A stretch of 36,795 bases of DNA, taken from positions 1-36,795 of the forward strand of contig CAMDMY010000025.1 in assembly GCA_945902775.1 (NCBI GenBank), given 5' to 3'. Shown here piece by piece: positions 9,084 to 16,894 of the stretch. The DNA is from Chryseobacterium gleum. GTDB taxonomy: Bacteria; Bacteroidota; Bacteroidia; Flavobacteriales_D; Crocinitomicaceae. Position 1 is the first letter of the stretch, and each line of letters begins with the position of its first letter. The position numbers and the translations under genes were made by a program. The notes beneath the pieces were generated by a model. That model saw only the letters and a list, made by a program, of their open reading frames with translations, was not told the origin of the DNA and made no database searches.

Positions 9084-11906
9084 ATGGAGTACAATTTTCA
9101 AGACATCGAACCTAAGTGGAGAAAAATTTGGGCAGATAACAAAACGTTTAAAGCAGAAGATAATAGTTCAAAACCGAAATATTATGTTTTGGATATGTTT
9201 CCTTATCCTTCAGGAGCAGGACTTCACGTTGGTCATCCGCTTGGATATATCGCTTCAGATATTTTCGCTCGTTACAAACGTTTGAAAGGATTCAATGTAC
9301 TTCACCCAATGGGTTATGATTCATTTGGTTTACCTGCAGAACAATATGCAATTCAAACGGGTCAACATCCAGCTGTAACAACGGAACAAAATATTGAACG
9401 TTATAGAGATCAATTGGATAAAATCGGTTTTTCTTTTGACTGGGACAGAGAAGTTCGCACTTCATCTCCAGAATATTACAAATGGACACAGTGGATTTTT
9501 AAACAATTATTCGACTGTTACTATGATAATAAAACGAACAAAGCAGAACGTATTTCGAAATTAATCGCTGAATTTGAGGCGAATGGAAATTCAAATGTGA
9601 ATGCTTGTTCTGATTGTGAATTTACTTTTACTGCTGAAGAATGGAAAGCATTTGACATAAAAAAGAAAGACGAAACATTACAATCATATCGTTTGACTTT
9701 CTTAGCTGATTCTTGGGTAAATTGGTGTCCAGCTTTAGGTACTGTTTTAGCAAATGATGAAATTGTAAATGGTGTTTCAGAAAGAGGTGGTCACCCAGTT
9801 GAACAAAAACTAATGCGTCAATGGTCAATGCGTATCAAAGCATACGCTGAACGATTATTGACAGGTTTAGAAGGTTTAGATTGGACAGATTCTGTAAAAG
9901 ATATTCAAAGAAACTGGATTGGAAAATCGGTAGGTTCTTCAGTTAAGTTTGAAGTGTTGACTTCGAGTGCCTCAGTCAACAATACGGGGGTTGAGGCACT
10001 CGATAATACGGGGGTTGAGGCACTCGAAACCCAAGTTATCGAAGTTTTCACAACTCGACCAGATACAATCTTCGGAGTTTCATTCATGGTGTTAGCGCCC
10101 GAACATCCTTTAGTAGATCAAATCACTACACCTGAATTCGCTTCACAAATAGCTGAATACAAGAAAAACGCTTCTTTAAAATCAGAACGTGATCGCCAAT
10201 CGGATGTAAAAAATATAACAGGACAAAACACAGGAGCTTTTGCGATTCATCCATTTACTGGAGAAAAAATTCAAATTTGGATAGGCGATTATGTTTTAGT
10301 TTCTTATGGAACCGGAGCAGTAATGGCCGTTCCTTGTGGAGATCAACGTGATTGGGATTTTGCGAAACACTTCAATATTGAAATCAAAAACATTTTCGAA
10401 AATATAGATGTTTCGGAAGCAGCTTATACAGAGAAATCAGGCTTTATTGCAAATTCAGATTTCTTAAACGGTTTGGAGGTGAAAGCGGCAATAAAAAAAG
10501 CGATTGAAGCCATCGAAACAAAAGGATTAGGTCAAGGAAAAACAAATTACCGTTTACGCGATGCTGTTTTTTCAAGACAACGTTATTGGGGAGAGCCTTT
10601 CCCAGTATATTACAAAGATGGACTGCCTTATTCAGTAGATGATAAGCATTTACCAATTACTCTTCCAGAAGTAGATAAATATTTACCAACAGAAACAGGT
10701 GAACCGCCATTAGCAAGAGCAGAAAAATCAGCGTGGAATCATTTTGAAGGGGATCACATGGAATTCAATACTATGCCAGGTTGGGCAGGAAGTTCTTGGT
10801 ATTTCCTTCGTTACATGGATCCTAAAAATGAGCAAGCTTTTGTTAGTAAAGAAAAAGCAGATTATTGGAAAAATGTAGATTTATACATTGGAGGTTCTGA
10901 ACATGCTACAGGACATTTATTATACGCTCGTTTCTGGACAAAATTCTTGTACGATCAAGGGTTTATTTCATTTGATGAACCTTTCCAAAAAATGATCAAT
11001 CAAGGGATGATTTTGGGAAGAAGTAGTTTTGTTTATAGAATAAACGACACAAATCAATTTGTTACGTGGACTAAGAAAAACGATTTTCAAACTACTGCTT
11101 TACACGTTGATATTTCAATAGTTGACAACGATAAATTAAATTTAGAAGCATTCAAAAAATCTAGAGCTGAATATAAAAATGCTGAATTTATTTTAGAGGA
11201 AGACGGAACTTACATTTGCGGTCACGAGGTAGAAAAAATGTCTAAATCTAAATTCAATGTTCAAACTCCGGATGAATTAGTTGAGAAATTTGGAGCAGAT
11301 ACGTTGAGAATGTATGAAATGTTTTTAGGTCCTTTAGAGCAATTCAAACCTTGGGATACAAAAGGTATCAACGGAGTACATAACTTCTTACGAAAATTAT
11401 GTCGTTTGTTTGAAGGTGAATTGTCATCTGAAGCTCCGACTAAAGAATCTTTAAAAACACTTCACAAAACGATAAAGAAAATAGGAGATGATTTAGAACG
11501 TTTTTCTTTCAACACAGGAGTTTCGAATTTTATGATTTGTGTAAACGAGTTAACGGAACAAAAATGCAACAATAAATCGATCTTAAAAGAGTTGGTAATT
11601 ATACTTTCTCCTTATGCTCCGCACATTGCAGAAGAGCTTTGGGAGAAATTAGGGAATGAAACAGGAACGATAAGTTATGCTAAATTTCCATCGTTTGACA
11701 AAAGCATATTAGTAGAAGCAAATTTTGAATATCCAGTATCTTTTAATGGAAAAATGAGATTTAAAGTCGATTTACCATTGAGTTTAACGCCACAAGAAGT
11801 GGAGAAAGAAGTGATGAGTAGAGCGGAAGCAGTGAAATATTTGGAAGGAAAAGATCCTAAAAAGGTGATTGTTGTTCCGGGTAGAATTGTGAATGTGGTT
11901 CTATAG
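9084..11906 (+). CDS. leuS: Leucyl-tRNA synthetase
   Basis: The 940-residue class I synthetase charges tRNA-Leu with leucine. It has the HIGH-type motif HVGH (48-51) after FPYPSGAGL, and KMSKS (718-722). The editing domain begins after the NWIGKS segment and holds TTRPDTIFG. The length (about 80 residues over the E. coli enzyme) reflects inserts usual in Bacteroidota, such as the CSDCEF segment and the block before KMSKS, plus an unusual one: residues about 291-315 contain a perfect tandem NTGVEAL[DE] repeat (300-307, 308-315). This is encoded by a palindromic DNA repeat and falls in a surface-loop position at the start of the editing domain. The frame is intact, so the protein should work. 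Confidence 0.98.
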   Translation: MEYNFQDIEPKWRKIWADNKTFKAEDNSSKPKYYVLDMFPYPSGAGLHVGHPLGYIASDIFARYKRLKGFNVLHPMGYDSFGLPAEQYAIQTGQHPAVTTEQNIERYRDQLDKIGFSFDWDREVRTSSPEYYKWTQWIFKQLFDCYYDNKTNKAERISKLIAEFEANGNSNVNACSDCEFTFTAEEWKAFDIKKKDETLQSYRLTFLADSWVNWCPALGTVLANDEIVNGVSERGGHPVEQKLMRQWSMRIKAYAERLLTGLEGLDWTDSVKDIQRNWIGKSVGSSVKFEVLTSSASVNNTGVEALDNTGVEALETQVIEVFTTRPDTIFGVSFMVLAPEHPLVDQITTPEFASQIAEYKKNASLKSERDRQSDVKNITGQNTGAFAIHPFTGEKIQIWIGDYVLVSYGTGAVMAVPCGDQRDWDFAKHFNIEIKNIFENIDVSEAAYTEKSGFIANSDFLNGLEVKAAIKKAIEAIETKGLGQGKTNYRLRDAVFSRQRYWGEPFPVYYKDGLPYSVDDKHLPITLPEVDKYLPTETGEPPLARAEKSAWNHFEGDHMEFNTMPGWAGSSWYFLRYMDPKNEQAFVSKEKADYWKNVDLYIGGSEHATGHLLYARFWTKFLYDQGFISFDEPFQKMINQGMILGRSSFVYRINDTNQFVTWTKKNDFQTTALHVDISIVDNDKLNLEAFKKSRAEYKNAEFILEEDGTYICGHEVEKMSKSKFNVQTPDELVEKFGADTLRMYEMFLGPLEQFKPWDTKGINGVHNFLRKLCRLFEGELSSEAPTKESLKTLHKTIKKIGDDLERFSFNTGVSNFMICVNELTEQKCNNKSILKELVIILSPYAPHIAEELWEKLGNETGTISYAKFPSFDKSILVEANFEYPVSFNGKMRFKVDLPLSLTPQEVEKEVMSRAEAVKYLEGKDPKKVIVVPGRIVNVVL
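9956..10028. repeat. Palindromic repeat element inside leuS coding sequence
   Basis: Two tandem 24-bp units (9981-10004, 10005-10028) differ only in the last base. Each contains TGAGGCACTCGA, and the second ends TGAGGCACTCGAA, the exact reverse complement of TTCGAGTGCCTCA at 9962-9974. The left arm is itself enclosed by GTTGAC (9956-9961) and GTCAAC (9975-9980). The GC-rich GGGGG and GAGGCACTCG words contrast with the AT-rich gene. The element keeps the reading frame (24 bp is 8 codons). Confidence 0.85.
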
Positions 11907-12263: not shown

Positions 12264-13469
12264 ATGGCTGATATACATACATACGATTTTGCAGGAAAAA
12301 GAGCGTTAATTCGCGTTGATTTCAATGTTCCTTTAGATAAAGAAACACTAGAAGTATCAGATGATACGAGAATTAGAGCTGCAGTTCCAACAATTCAACA
12401 CATTTTAAATAATGGTGGAAGTGTTGTTTTAATGTCTCATTTAGGACGTCCGAAAGAAGGCTTCGAAGACAAATATTCTTTGAAACACATTGTTAAAAGA
12501 GTTTCTGAATTAGTTGGTCGTCCAGTTTCTTTTGCTGAAGATTGTATTGGAGATAAAGCTTTTGAAATGAGTTCAAATTTACCAGCTGGTGAAGTATTGT
12601 TATTAGAAAATTTACGTTTTTACAAACATGAAACAACTGGTACAGAAAGTTTTGCAGAACAATTAGCGAAACACGGGGATGTATATGTTAATGATGCATT
12701 TGGAACAGCGCACAGAGCGCACGCAAGTACAGCAATTATTGCTAAATTTTTCCCAAAAGATAAAATGTTTGGATTCTTATTAGAGGCTGAGATTATCAGT
12801 GTTGATAAGGTTTTAAATAGTACAGAAAAACCATTAACTGCAATTGTAGGTGGAGCAAAAGTATCTTCAAAAATTACAATCATCGAACGTTTATTAGATA
12901 AAGTAGACAATCTGATAGTAGGAGGCGGAATGGCATACACATTCGTAAAAGCAGTAGGAGGAAATGTAGGAAATTCATTAGTTGAAGACGATTATATTCC
13001 AATGGCTTTAGAGATTTTAGCAAAAGCGAAAGCAAAAGGAGTTAATTTATATATTCCAACTGATACAGTTATTGCGGATAAATTTGCGAATGATGCTAAT
13101 ATTCAAACAGTTAAAATAGATCAAATTCCTTCTGGTTGGATGGGATTAGACGTTGGTCCAGAAACATCAAAAGCATGTGCAGAAATAATCGAAAATTCTA
13201 AATTGATTTTATGGAATGGTCCGATGGGAGTATTTGAAATGGAAAACTTTCAACAAGGAACAAAAGACGTTGCTAATGCAATTGTAGCAGCAACTGAAAA
13301 AGGAGCTTTTTCACTAATCGGTGGAGGAGATTCAGTCGCAGCAATTAACTTGTTCAACTTAGCTAATAAAGTTAGTTATGTTTCAACTGGAGGAGGAGCG
13401 ATGTTAGAATACTTAGAAGGAATTGAACTTCCAGGTATTAAAGCAATTAGAGAAGAAGCATTGGTTTAA
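12264..13469 (+). CDS. pgk: Phosphoglycerate kinase
   Basis: The 401-residue enzyme moves the acyl phosphate of 1,3-bisphosphoglycerate to ADP in glycolysis (cytosol). The N-terminal half has RVDFNVPLD (18-26), the substrate-binding SHLGRPKEG and [11 protein letters not shown]. The C-terminal half has the nucleotide-site blocks [18 protein letters not shown] and GGGDSVAAI. The length is typical. It has a short leader from a consensus promoter and a strong terminator, so it is a single-gene unit. No other glycolytic gene is adjacent. Confidence 0.98.
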
Positions 13470-13483
13470 ACCAAATTATAAAA

Positions 13484-13522
13484 ACAAAAAGGTCGACTAA
13501 ATCAGTCGACCTTTTTTGTTTT
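13484..13522 (+). terminator. Intrinsic terminator after pgk
   Basis: AAAAAGGTCGACT, a 5-nt loop AAATC and AGTCGACCTTTTTT form a perfect stem with a T tail. A-rich DNA on the other side makes it possibly bidirectional. Confidence 0.9.
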
Positions 13523-13580
13523 TAAAGTTATTGTAGTAGTAGTGTAATAACTTTTTATGTAGTATTTTAAATTTCAATTT

Positions 13581-13767
13581 AAAATCAGGTTAAATCTTCC
13601 GTTCTGTAAATTTAATTACTTACTTAGAAATAGGACTGAGGAAATAAGAACCGTTAAACTCTTTATCAAAACTAGAAAATGAAACTGCCTCTCCAAGCAG
13701 CTACCTCAATACTATTTCAAAGTGAAACTAAGAAAGATTATAACCTGATTTTTCCTTATTTCTTCTT
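13581..13767 (+). ncRNA. Structured non-coding RNA candidate, 6S-like
   Basis: No gene lies between pgk and the LytTR gene, yet AAAATCAGGTTA (13581-13592) pairs perfectly with TAACCTGATTTT (13741-13752), and the stem continues with AATCTT (13593-13598) to AAGATT (13734-13739) across a one-base bulge. Inside, GAAATAG (13627-13633) pairs with CTATTTC (13712-13718), then TGAGG (13637-13641) with CCTCA (13704-13708), and CTGC/GCAG (13685-13688, 13697-13700) makes a small hairpin. The 3' end runs into a U-rich tract. TAAATTTC (13568-13575), one base off the -7 consensus, would start RNA at about 13581. The size (about 172 nt), closing stem and large internal loops recall 6S RNA; Flavobacterial 6S variants exist, but the match is not proved. 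13768-13901 shows nothing further. Confidence 0.55.
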
Positions 13768-13902
13768 AAATATAGAAAGTCTATTTAATCCAATTGATTC
13801 AAATGAATATTGATTGTTTTTAAACTATCAAAATACTATTTTAAATGAAAATTGATTTTTTGATTGAGGATAAGCATAAGTTTAAGGGTGAGGAATTTTA
13901 AT

Positions 13903-13929
13903 CTCAACCTAAACCTCAATTATAATAAA
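13903..13929. repeat. CTCAACC-type short repeat at the end of the LytTR gene
   Basis: CTCAACCTAAACCTCAAT followed by TATAATAAATT resembles the string at 5838-5880. It runs into the stop codon of the response regulator gene. Confidence 0.35.
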
Positions 13930-14666
13930 TTCTCTAAAATTTTAAAGAAAATATCTCTTTTAGCAGGAGACAATGGAACTTCAGAATCATCTTTCATTAC
14001 AACACATCCACCATTTCCTTTATCATATCTTGAAACATAGTCCAAGTTAATTAAATGGGATTGTTGAACTCTTAAAAAATTATGTCCTGATAATAGTGTT
14101 TCGTAGTCTTTCAGTGTTTTAGAAACTAAAATTTTCTTACCACTTGTTAAATAAAAAGAAGTGTAATTTCTATCTGCTTCACAACGTATAATATTGTCTA
14201 ATTCAACGACATGGACACTCTCTTGTGTTTTTAAAACTAACCTTCTTTTTTGATTTGGTTGAATATTGAGTTGAAGCGCATCGAATTGACTCTCTTCTTT
14301 TTTGTGGCCAATTGATTCTATTGCTCTTTCAACAGCTGCTTTTAATTCATCAGCATCTACAGGTTTTAAAATATAATCTAAAGCACTAAATTTTATTGCT
14401 TTTATTGCAAACTCTTCATGAGCGGTAATAAATATAACGTCGAAAGATTTGTGAGGAATCGAACGGAGTAGATCAAATCCTGTACCGTCTGGCATTTGAA
14501 TATCTAAAAATACGATATCTGGATTATGTTCTTCAATTGCTTTTAAACCTGTAGATACACTTTCACCAGCAGGTATGGCTATAATGTCTAATCCAAATGA
14601 ATTGATCATTTTAGCGATCAGATCTCGAGTCCTATTTTCGTCGTCTATTACAAGAGCCTTTTTCAT
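13920..14666 (-). CDS. LytTR-family response regulator
   Basis: The 248-residue protein has an N-terminal receiver domain (1-125) with the acidic pocket DDE (8-10), phospho-acceptor Asp at 55 in VFLDIQMPDG, Thr in FITAHEE and Lys in ILKPVDADEL. The C-terminal LytTR DNA-binding domain (about 145-248) shows RRLVLKTQESVHVVELDNII, YTSFYLTSGKKILVSKTLKDYE and LRVQQSHLINLDYVSRYD, typical of the family. It lies 2 bp after the sensor kinase gene, so the pair works as a two-component system. LytTR regulators of this kind often bind direct repeats upstream of targets; the targets here are unknown. Confidence 0.95.
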   Translation of the reverse strand: MKKALVIDDENRTRDLIAKMINSFGLDIIAIPAGESVSTGLKAIEEHNPDIVFLDIQMPDGTGFDLLRSIPHKSFDVIFITAHEEFAIKAIKFSALDYILKPVDADELKAAVERAIESIGHKKEESQFDALQLNIQPNQKRRLVLKTQESVHVVELDNIIRCEADRNYTSFYLTSGKKILVSKTLKDYETLLSGHNFLRVQQSHLINLDYVSRYDKGNGGCVVMKDDSEVPLSPAKRDIFFKILENLL

Positions 14667-14668
14667 TT

Positions 14669-16894
14669 TTAATTCGATTTTTTTGTTTGAGCATCAATTT
14701 GATATGGTAACGAAATTAATACTTTTGTTCCGGTTTCCAAGTTTTTATCAAAATCTTCTATAATTAAATAACCTGAGGTTTTGTATTTTTTATTTAGATT
14801 ATCAATTCGTTCTTTTGTGATATTCAAAGCCATACTTGTATGGTCTTGCCTTTTTTTATTTTTTTGAGCATTTTTTCTACCAATTCCATTGTCTTCAATT
14901 CGAATTTCAAGCATCTCCTCTATTTTAGAAAAAGTGATGTTAATTAAACCACCTTCTACTGTGTGTAATTGACCATGTTCAATTGCATTTTCTATAAATG
15001 GTTGCGTTATCATTGGAGGAATCATGGCATTTTCTAACATCATTTTATCTTCAATATGTATCGAATATTCAAATCTTTCCTCGAATCTTAATTTTTGAGT
15101 TTCTAGGTATTTTTGAAGAATTTCAACTTCGGTAGAAATAGGAATAAATTCTTTAGGAGAATTTTCTAATATCAATCGAATTAAGCGGGAAAAGTTAACT
15201 AAAAATTTAGAGGAGTTTTTTACATCATTATCATAAATATAACTTTGAATTACTGACATTGAATTAAAAATAAAATGAGGATTCATTTGAGTCCTTAAAA
15301 GTGTTTGAAGCATTTCAGCTTCTTTTTGTTGTTGTTTGATGGTTCGTTGATTTAATCGATAAAAACCAATTACAGCACCTAATAGTATTATGATTATGAA
15401 ACCAATAATAATGTACGTTTTCTCGTTATTTTTTAATTCAGTATTTTCTAATTTTGTCGATGTCCAAGCTCTTTCTCGGTGCTGACGTTCAATCGAATCA
15501 GCTTGTAATTGAATTAATCTTTCTCGTTGTTCTGATCGATATAATTCACCTAATTCTGCAATTTTCGCGGATTCTTGAATCGATGAGTTACTATCTAAAA
15601 AGTTCAAATACAAATGCATGTATTTTAATGATTCTTTGATTTTTCCTATATCACTAAAGACATCTGCCATAATTCTATATGTATGAAAAATCTGATTCTT
15701 AGCACCAAATTGTTTACGAATTTCAATCGAACGATTTAAGTAATTTAAAGCAATTGAATATCTTTTTTGTTGCTGAAAAACCATACCAACATTATGATAA
15801 ACACTTGCAATTTGTTCACGATTGTTAGTGGACTCATAATTCACAAGTGATTTATTGAAATTAAGAGCAGCTAATTCGTATTGATGTTCTTCTCGGTATA
15901 TAACTCCTAAGTTGTTGTAGGCCTTTCCTAAACCATTGTGATCGTTTAATTTGGTAAGAATACTAATTGCCTTAATATTAAACTCAATGGCATTTACATA
16001 CTCGGTTCTTTTTGCAAAGACGGTTCCAAGATTTGAATAACCAAGGGCAACTTGTCTATAATCTTTGATTTGTTTTGAGTAGTTTATAGATTGCTTAAAA
16101 TATTTCTCTGCTTCAATATAATTTGAAATAAATAATTGAGCCTCACCAATTTCTCGGGTATACCTAGCCATACGTGGAAGGTCATTAATTCCAGAAACCA
16201 ATTGTAAACTAAAGTAATTTTTCGCGACACTTAATTCAACTTGACCGAAATTTGCATAAATGTTTGATTGTGTATTAAAACTTTCGGCTAAAATGCTTTT
16301 GTTAGCAGAACGTCTAGCATATTTGATGGATTCATCAGTGAAATAGTAGGCAGAATCTTTGTTATTAGCAATTGTAGAATTATAAGCGAGAGAAGAATAA
16401 CTTTCAGCTATTTTTTCATAATTCCGGGCTTTTATTGCTAATCGAAGTGAATACTTGAAATAATATTTTGCTTTTTTTAAATCAAGCGAATTATTATAAT
16501 AATGCCCTAAATGATGATAAACGTAATATTGGTTTTCTTTTGATATTGATTTTTTTAAATACGGAAAAAAAGCGGTGACGGTTTTAAAATAATCATCGTT
16601 ATTACCTTGTATTTCAGCGATTTGCGCAATGTATAGAAGTGCCTTAAATTGATAGGTATCGTTTAAGTTTTTACTTGTTTTTAAAATAACAGTTTTTAAA
16701 GAATCAGCTCTATAAATATCATGGCGTTTGTAATATTCTCCTAAAGCAATCATTCTCATAAATTGCTTAGAAGGATTTTTTTCAGTTCTTAAAAGTTGTT
16801 TAAGCTGTTTTTCATGATTTTTTTGAGAATAAGAAATCACTGAAAACAAAATTGTTATCAAACAAACGAAATATGTTTTCAATGATTGTTGCAT
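14669..16894 (-). CDS. Sensor histidine kinase with TPR domain (LytS/YehU type)
   Basis: The 741-residue protein starts with a signal peptide (about 1-23, ending SYSQ). A long TPR region follows (about 30-440), with repeats such as ALGYSNLGTVFAKRTEYVNA and YNNLGVIYREEHQYELAA. After a coiled stretch, one transmembrane helix (about 494-515) leads to the cytosolic His_kinase domain: MNPHFIFNSM with the phosphorylated His, then FIENAIEHG (N-box) and RIEDNGIGRKNAQ (G1-type box). The TPRs are thus probably periplasmic and sense a protein or peptide signal. It follows mtnA by 1 bp and precedes the LytTR regulator by 2 bp. Confidence 0.95.
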   Translation of the reverse strand: MQQSLKTYFVCLITILFSVISYSQKNHEKQLKQLLRTEKNPSKQFMRMIALGEYYKRHDIYRADSLKTVILKTSKNLNDTYQFKALLYIAQIAEIQGNNDDYFKTVTAFFPYLKKSISKENQYYVYHHLGHYYNNSLDLKKAKYYFKYSLRLAIKARNYEKIAESYSSLAYNSTIANNKDSAYYFTDESIKYARRSANKSILAESFNTQSNIYANFGQVELSVAKNYFSLQLVSGINDLPRMARYTREIGEAQLFISNYIEAEKYFKQSINYSKQIKDYRQVALGYSNLGTVFAKRTEYVNAIEFNIKAISILTKLNDHNGLGKAYNNLGVIYREEHQYELAALNFNKSLVNYESTNNREQIASVYHNVGMVFQQQKRYSIALNYLNRSIEIRKQFGAKNQIFHTYRIMADVFSDIGKIKESLKYMHLYLNFLDSNSSIQESAKIAELGELYRSEQRERLIQLQADSIERQHRERAWTSTKLENTELKNNEKTYIIIGFIIIILLGAVIGFYRLNQRTIKQQQKEAEMLQTLLRTQMNPHFIFNSMSVIQSYIYDNDVKNSSKFLVNFSRLIRLILENSPKEFIPISTEVEILQKYLETQKLRFEERFEYSIHIEDKMMLENAMIPPMITQPFIENAIEHGQLHTVEGGLINITFSKIEEMLEIRIEDNGIGRKNAQKNKKRQDHTSMALNITKERIDNLNKKYKTSGYLIIEDFDKNLETGTKVLISLPYQIDAQTKKSN

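Follow-up and report, generated by a model that had tools for sequence, protein, structure and literature searches.

To our knowledge, the RNA outputs of LytTR systems have so far come from Gram-positive bacteria (Firmicutes), the examples being RNAIII, FasX and VR-RNA. These three RNAs, tied to AgrA, FasA and VirR respectively, represent comparable circuits in which a small RNA (sRNA) is linked to a LytTR regulator (PMC3673130). Regulators of this family use 9-bp direct repeats, mostly 12 bp apart and thus with a 21 bp period, that lie just upstream of promoters (PMC6193735), and AgrA sites are centered near -60 (PMC4227749). From the phylum Bacteroidota, FopS and GibS of Bacteroides, which are bound by RbpB, offer a second comparison; both pair with translation starts, in the case of FopS through the seed GTGTTTTTCATAG..., whose partners are translation initiation regions (PMC11697453). 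Translation starts in this phylum favor A upstream, and its mRNAs are without Shine-Dalgarno (SD) sequences (PMC6847099). A third comparison is with the 6S RNAs, namely 6S (RF00013), 6S-Flavo (RF01685) and Bacteroidales-1/6S-Bacteroidales (RF01693), which the RNA analyzed here resembles in its size, its closing stem and its occurrence as a free-standing gene.

The RNA gene lies between pgk, on the plus strand with its end at 13469, and a LytTR two-component system, in the window (the whole stretch of 36,795 nucleotides that was analyzed). It is a conserved structured element on the minus strand, the same strand as the two-component genes, and is predicted to be transcribed as an sRNA of about 182 nt (13581-13762, minus), running from GAAATAAGG to a U-run past the closing stem; both ends are putative, and the element is supported by homology, covariation and a covariance-model match (13579-13762 minus, 138.5 bits, the window sequence being one of the 24 from which the model was built). 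A bidirectional terminator common to pgk (13486-13516) would halt read-through from the sRNA. On the upstream side are the gene of a LytTR response regulator (13920-14666, minus), with Pfam Response_reg and LytTR domains, convergent to pgk and proposed as the activator, and that of its partner, a sensor with TPR and His_kinase domains (14669-16894, minus). We consider it reasonably probable that the gene encodes a free-standing, LytTR-activated, trans-acting sRNA of about 180 nt, probably pairing with A-rich translation starts via UUUUCAUUUUCUAGUUU. Elsewhere in the window, leuS contains a short in-frame repeat (NNTGVEALDNTGVEALE) at 9905-10087.

Homologues were collected at 80 public loci by means of a core pattern, and the titles of these records are nearly all Crocinitomicaceae, Fluviicola or Flavobacteriales. 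Because part of the core served as the search pattern, its conservation in the 80 loci is partly due to selection; the covariance-model matches, and a DNA search that found strong homologues among relatives, are independent of this bias. The covariance model (R1) matched 26 of 150 genomes of the order, all within the organism's own family and none in the other families, in a search with a coarse first pass, so that absences within the family are no proof. No match to the sRNA was found in plasmid records or, with one pattern, in viral contigs, and a search of open-licence papers for sRNAs of Fluviicola turned up no earlier account of it. Having no Rfam match either, the RNA appears to represent a separate, previously undescribed family within the Crocinitomicaceae. 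One record among the homologues, CP034120.1 (L055), is titled Glaciecola amylolytica and carries the Bacteroidota RNA with its kinase and LytTR genes (the latter 79% identical); either this title or the strain assigned to the record seems mistaken, as do the titles of several metagenome-assembled genomes (Chryseobacterium gleum, Chitinophaga pinensis, Kuenenia).

In the element (13581-13767), about 20 base pairs interrupted by one bulge make up the closing stem; in addition there are a second stem, two hairpins at the apex and, on the 3' side, one small hairpin. On the minus strand, the closing stem P1 is formed by a 5' strand at 13732-13752 and a 3' strand at 13581-13604, with the U-run at its end, and P2 by strands at 13704-13728 and 13622-13641. 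The apical part consists of the almost invariant P3 hairpin CUGCUU-GGAG-AGGCAG (13683-13702), the single-stranded UUUCAUUUUCUAGUUUUGAU (13665-13685), which is the best-kept stretch of the family and the proposed seed, and the P4 hairpin AAGAG-UUUAACGG-UUCUU (13646-13663), seen both in the fold and by RNAalifold. Between P2 and P1 on the 3' side, the fold also places P5 (13606-13619), the sequence of which varies among relatives. In 40 divergent copies, the native arms pair with -37.5 kcal/mol, compared with -23.1 for permuted arms (z -18.2), and none of 10,000 permutations was as good; P2 alone gave z -16.4 and P1 alone z -12.9, again with 0 of 10,000 permutations each. This permutation leaves relatedness in; what it shows is that each arm pairs better with the partner from its own copy than with those from other copies, as is expected of compensatory change. 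From the large difference between native and permuted arms we conclude that changes in P1 and P2 have been compensatory, and RNAalifold on 24 copies detected two-sided changes in P1 too. The sequence-only reading had proposed an unannotated structured RNA, with the same closing stem, inner stems and span; covariation and family-wide conservation bear this out, and the 80 loci with their compensatory stem changes put the element far beyond chance, 13581-13752 being one folding unit whose stems change in sequence while keeping their pairing and whose closing stem passes the permutation test by itself.

The flanks of the rod vary in sequence, and conservation is concentrated at the apical three-way junction, CUGCUUGGAGAGGCAG-UUUUCAUUUUCUAGUUUGAU-AAGAG..UUCUU, which is almost invariant. 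The core, CUGCUUGGAGAGGCAG-UUUUCAUUUUCUAGUUUGAU-(A)AAGAGUAUAACAGUUCU, shows hardly any variation over about 54 nt, and UUUCUAGUUU, on the 3' side of the P3 hairpin, is kept even by the most divergent members. One genome (G027) has a minimal RNA that retains the tandem promoter boxes, P2, P3 and UUUUCUAGUUU without P4. A pseudoknot between CUaGUU and the P4 loop was also considered, and is not needed because this minimal RNA is without P4. Another genome, G286, has two copies of the RNA (L227 and L230), in which AAGCAG replaces AGGCAG in P3 and the seed is without CAU.

The sequence-only reading was right about the structure and had left the strand unspecified; it is now assigned to the minus strand by three features of the homologues, namely their fold energies, their counts of G-U pairs and a -7 box that is conserved. 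For 13575-13770 read as minus-strand RNA, the folding energy is -50.9 kcal/mol (z -4.19, equaled by 0 of 200 shuffles), compared with -38.8 kcal/mol (z -3.79) for the plus strand of the element. The minus reading is the better fold in all 39 divergent copies, whose stems contain 165 G-U pairs in that reading and 48 in the plus reading. It is likewise on the minus strand that the homologues conserve the start GAAATAAGG, the boxes upstream of it and the -7 box of TAnnTTTG type.

In the proposed action of this sRNA, P1 and P2 would form a long rod supporting the apical three-way junction, which displays the near-invariant single strand UUUUCAUUUUCUAGUUUGAU; this strand most likely pairs with the A-rich starts (complement CUAGAAAAUGAAAA) of several mRNAs. 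Such pairing would repress those mRNAs, in the manner of the FopS and GibS seeds in Bacteroides, and the partner mRNAs would have CUAGAAAAUGAA-like starts. Both targets and mode of action we infer from sequence: pairing with mRNA is favored because the proposed seed, UUUCUAGUUU with the preceding UUUUCAU, is complementary to A-rich starts, for example CUAGAAAAUGAAAA, and because it resembles the seed of FopS and GibS. Like those RNAs of the same phylum, the present one has a single-stranded putative seed that contains UUUUCAU and matches A-rich AUG starts, and it shares its promoter type with FopS. The architecture differs, in that FopS is a 5' single strand followed by a terminator hairpin and is present in many copies, whereas the seed here sits inside a covarying three-way junction of an RNA that is usually single-copy; there is no homology, and the sole match of the Rfam GibS model, below its cut-off, is at the pgk terminator region.

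Searches for partners of the seed gave a weak excess of matches. The 19-nt anti-seed had 231 matches in 20 genomes, about 20 of them the RNA gene itself, compared with 135 for the control, an excess that A-rich start codons by themselves could explain. No conserved mRNA target was found by exact anti-seed search in the organism's own genome and the 20 genomes, and the top matches at start codons were to a weakly BatD-like protein in two genomes of one genus (G025 and G261). The CAU of the seed is missing in some members of the family (L226-L228, L230, G027). LytTR start regions overall pair with the sRNA hardly better than those of other genes (-8.9 versus -7.8 kcal/mol). At four loci (L087, L098, L100 and L114) the LytTR start region, AAAACTAGAAA..ATGAA, is a nearly full complement of the sRNA strand, and the strict form of this complement occurs at 0 of 354 control starts. 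Negative feedback of the sRNA on LytTR is possible, as judged from complementarity, in one sub-clade; feedback on the LytTR mRNA throughout the family was rejected, the complement (AACUAGAAA..AUGAA) being strong in a few species of the same genus and absent from the window and from the family.

In the main rival to this reading, the same LytTR-controlled RNA binds a protein or the ribosome instead of mRNAs. Its docking site would consist of the UAAGGAG leader, the loop GGAG and the strand rich in U, and its partner might be, for example, an RbpB-like RRM protein or 16S rRNA, through the anti-SD end of the latter. The nearly fixed core of about 54 nt exceeds the usual need of a seed, UAAGGAG is a perfect SD sequence in a phylum whose mRNAs are without one (PMC6847099), and the anti-seed search in 20 genomes yielded no single conserved target. 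However, the SD-like leader is missing at four loci (L050, L088, L091 and L102), one genome (G244) keeps the U-rich strand without the GGAG loop, and a search of the genome for CsrA, the protein best known for binding GGA, found none (best match 12 bits, cut-off 27). We regard this mode of action as unlikely. The failure to find CsrA also led to rejection of a CsrA sponge like CsrB or RsmZ. An RNA acting on the ribosome in particular, with the UAAGGAG leader and GGAG loop shown to the anti-SD of 16S rRNA along with an anti-start-codon strand, is quite improbable; were it true, a LytTR sensor would tune translation globally.

The sequence-only reading had noticed a -7-like box at the right distance. 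The -7 element of the minus strand, TATATTTA (13767-13774, minus; consensus TAnnTTTG), keeps its position among homologues. It begins 36-37 nt past the start of a LytTR-type operator box, ATATTCAT (13803-13810, minus), that matches ATRTTCAT at 8 of 8 positions; the same start-to-start spacing is found in 21 of 39 divergent loci, and the operator box itself is 8/8 in all but one of the 39. Exactly 21 bp upstream of the best box, the 8-mer has a mean score of 6.54 of 8, with at least 6 in 31 of the 39 loci, compared with scores of 1.9-3.9 at other spacings from 12 to 30 bp. Tandem repeats with a period of about 21 bp upstream of the promoter, as in LytTR-controlled sRNAs, are therefore present in those 31 loci, and some genomes have a third box at -91. 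The window has a single good box, its second position (13824-13831, minus) being occupied by the degenerate TTGATAGT, with 4 of 8 matches. The sRNA looks like the RNA output of a LytTR sensor because these boxes are laid out like LytTR sites, and LytTR control of the sRNA is strongly indicated by the arrangement. Most likely, the ATRTTCAT direct repeats, which have a 21 bp period and a center near -55, are bound by the two-component system encoded immediately upstream, and this binding would switch on the sRNA from a primary-sigma -7 promoter. In the whole genome of the organism, tandem ATRTTCAT-N13-ATRTTCAT with at most 2 mismatches occurs 77 times, compared with 25 for the reversed control, a possible LytTR regulon.

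Synteny points to the same regulator. A LytTR gene, 72-92% identical, lies just upstream of the RNA on the same strand at 51 of the 80 loci, with the kinase seen at 48; at the remaining loci, the RNA has unrelated neighbors or the locus is not long enough for them to be judged. Searched by protein, 15 of 15 RNA-bearing genomes, including unlinked cases, have a LytTR orthologue of at least 62% identity, and five relatives without a model match have one of at most 51% or none, a co-occurrence that is inflated by shared ancestry. In several genomes (G023, G025, G032 and others) the orthologue is on a contig other than that of the RNA. The minimal RNA of G027 coexists with a LytTR protein 71% identical, and in G024 the LytTR protein is 80% identical and no RNA was found beside its gene. 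Where sampled, relocated RNAs are flanked by unrelated genes and have the same promoter, and this relocation argues for action in trans. At 51 of 80 loci the RNA immediately follows the LytTR gene in the same orientation, and it could therefore also be a 3' UTR processed from the kinase-LytTR operon, or a cis element of that operon, with no separate gene; we hold this to be very improbable, since the RNA is preceded, after the LytTR stop, by a -7 box and tandem operators of its own and, elsewhere, resides among unrelated genes with the same promoter.

The sequence-only reading suggested a 6S variant, and a 6S RNA of diverged sequence, capturing RNA polymerase, would fit a free-standing rod of about 180 nt with a closing stem, single-copy in most genomes and found in a genome without any 6S above the Rfam cut-off. 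The long closing stem is present, as P1 with covariation, but the conserved promoter-like central bubble is absent, its place being taken by the conserved apical junction, and the promoter has LytTR-type operators. No Rfam family reaches its gathering score at the element, where RF00013, RF01685 and RF01693 gave no match even at E 10; 6S and 6S-Flavo were not found genome-wide, and 6S models run over the window, its own genome, relatives and the class placed no 6S at the element. A separate sequence, G000:C17:40627-40808 (L135:1501-1682 minus), matches the Bacteroidales-1/6S-Bacteroidales model with 33 bits (E 0.001; gathering score 60) and has the motifs AAUGGCGGGCC and GUGGAUUACA in common with the model consensus, and is probably the true 6S of this genome, lying below the curated cut-off. 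A diverged 6S was rejected on sequence, place of conservation and promoter type, and is highly improbable. Least credible, and given almost no weight, is the reading of the plus strand as a transcript or as the gene of a small peptide (ATGAAACTGCCTCTCC...); the window offers an ATG with a 44-codon frame there, but one-base indels shift that frame between relatives, with stops at 15-73 codons, and the strand tests go to minus in 39 of 39 copies.

The sRNA as read here, LytTR-activated and acting in trans, is like RNAIII, FasX and VR-RNA in that the gene of a regulatory RNA is associated with a LytTR-type system, with tandem repeats of 21 bp period centered near -55 to -60 of the promoter. It differs in having no known sequence relation to them, a Bacteroidota promoter, no coding part seen, a rod with an apical three-way junction as its fold and a sensor with TPR repeats; LytTR control is here proposed from sequence layout and synteny. 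Because a few hosts are cultured (Fluviicola, Taishania), the regulator, operator, sRNA and targets are directly testable. The circuit would be complete in one set, comprising sensor kinase, LytTR regulator, tandem operators and sRNA, and, if the reading is true, a LytTR RNA output would be present in a whole family of aquatic Bacteroidota.
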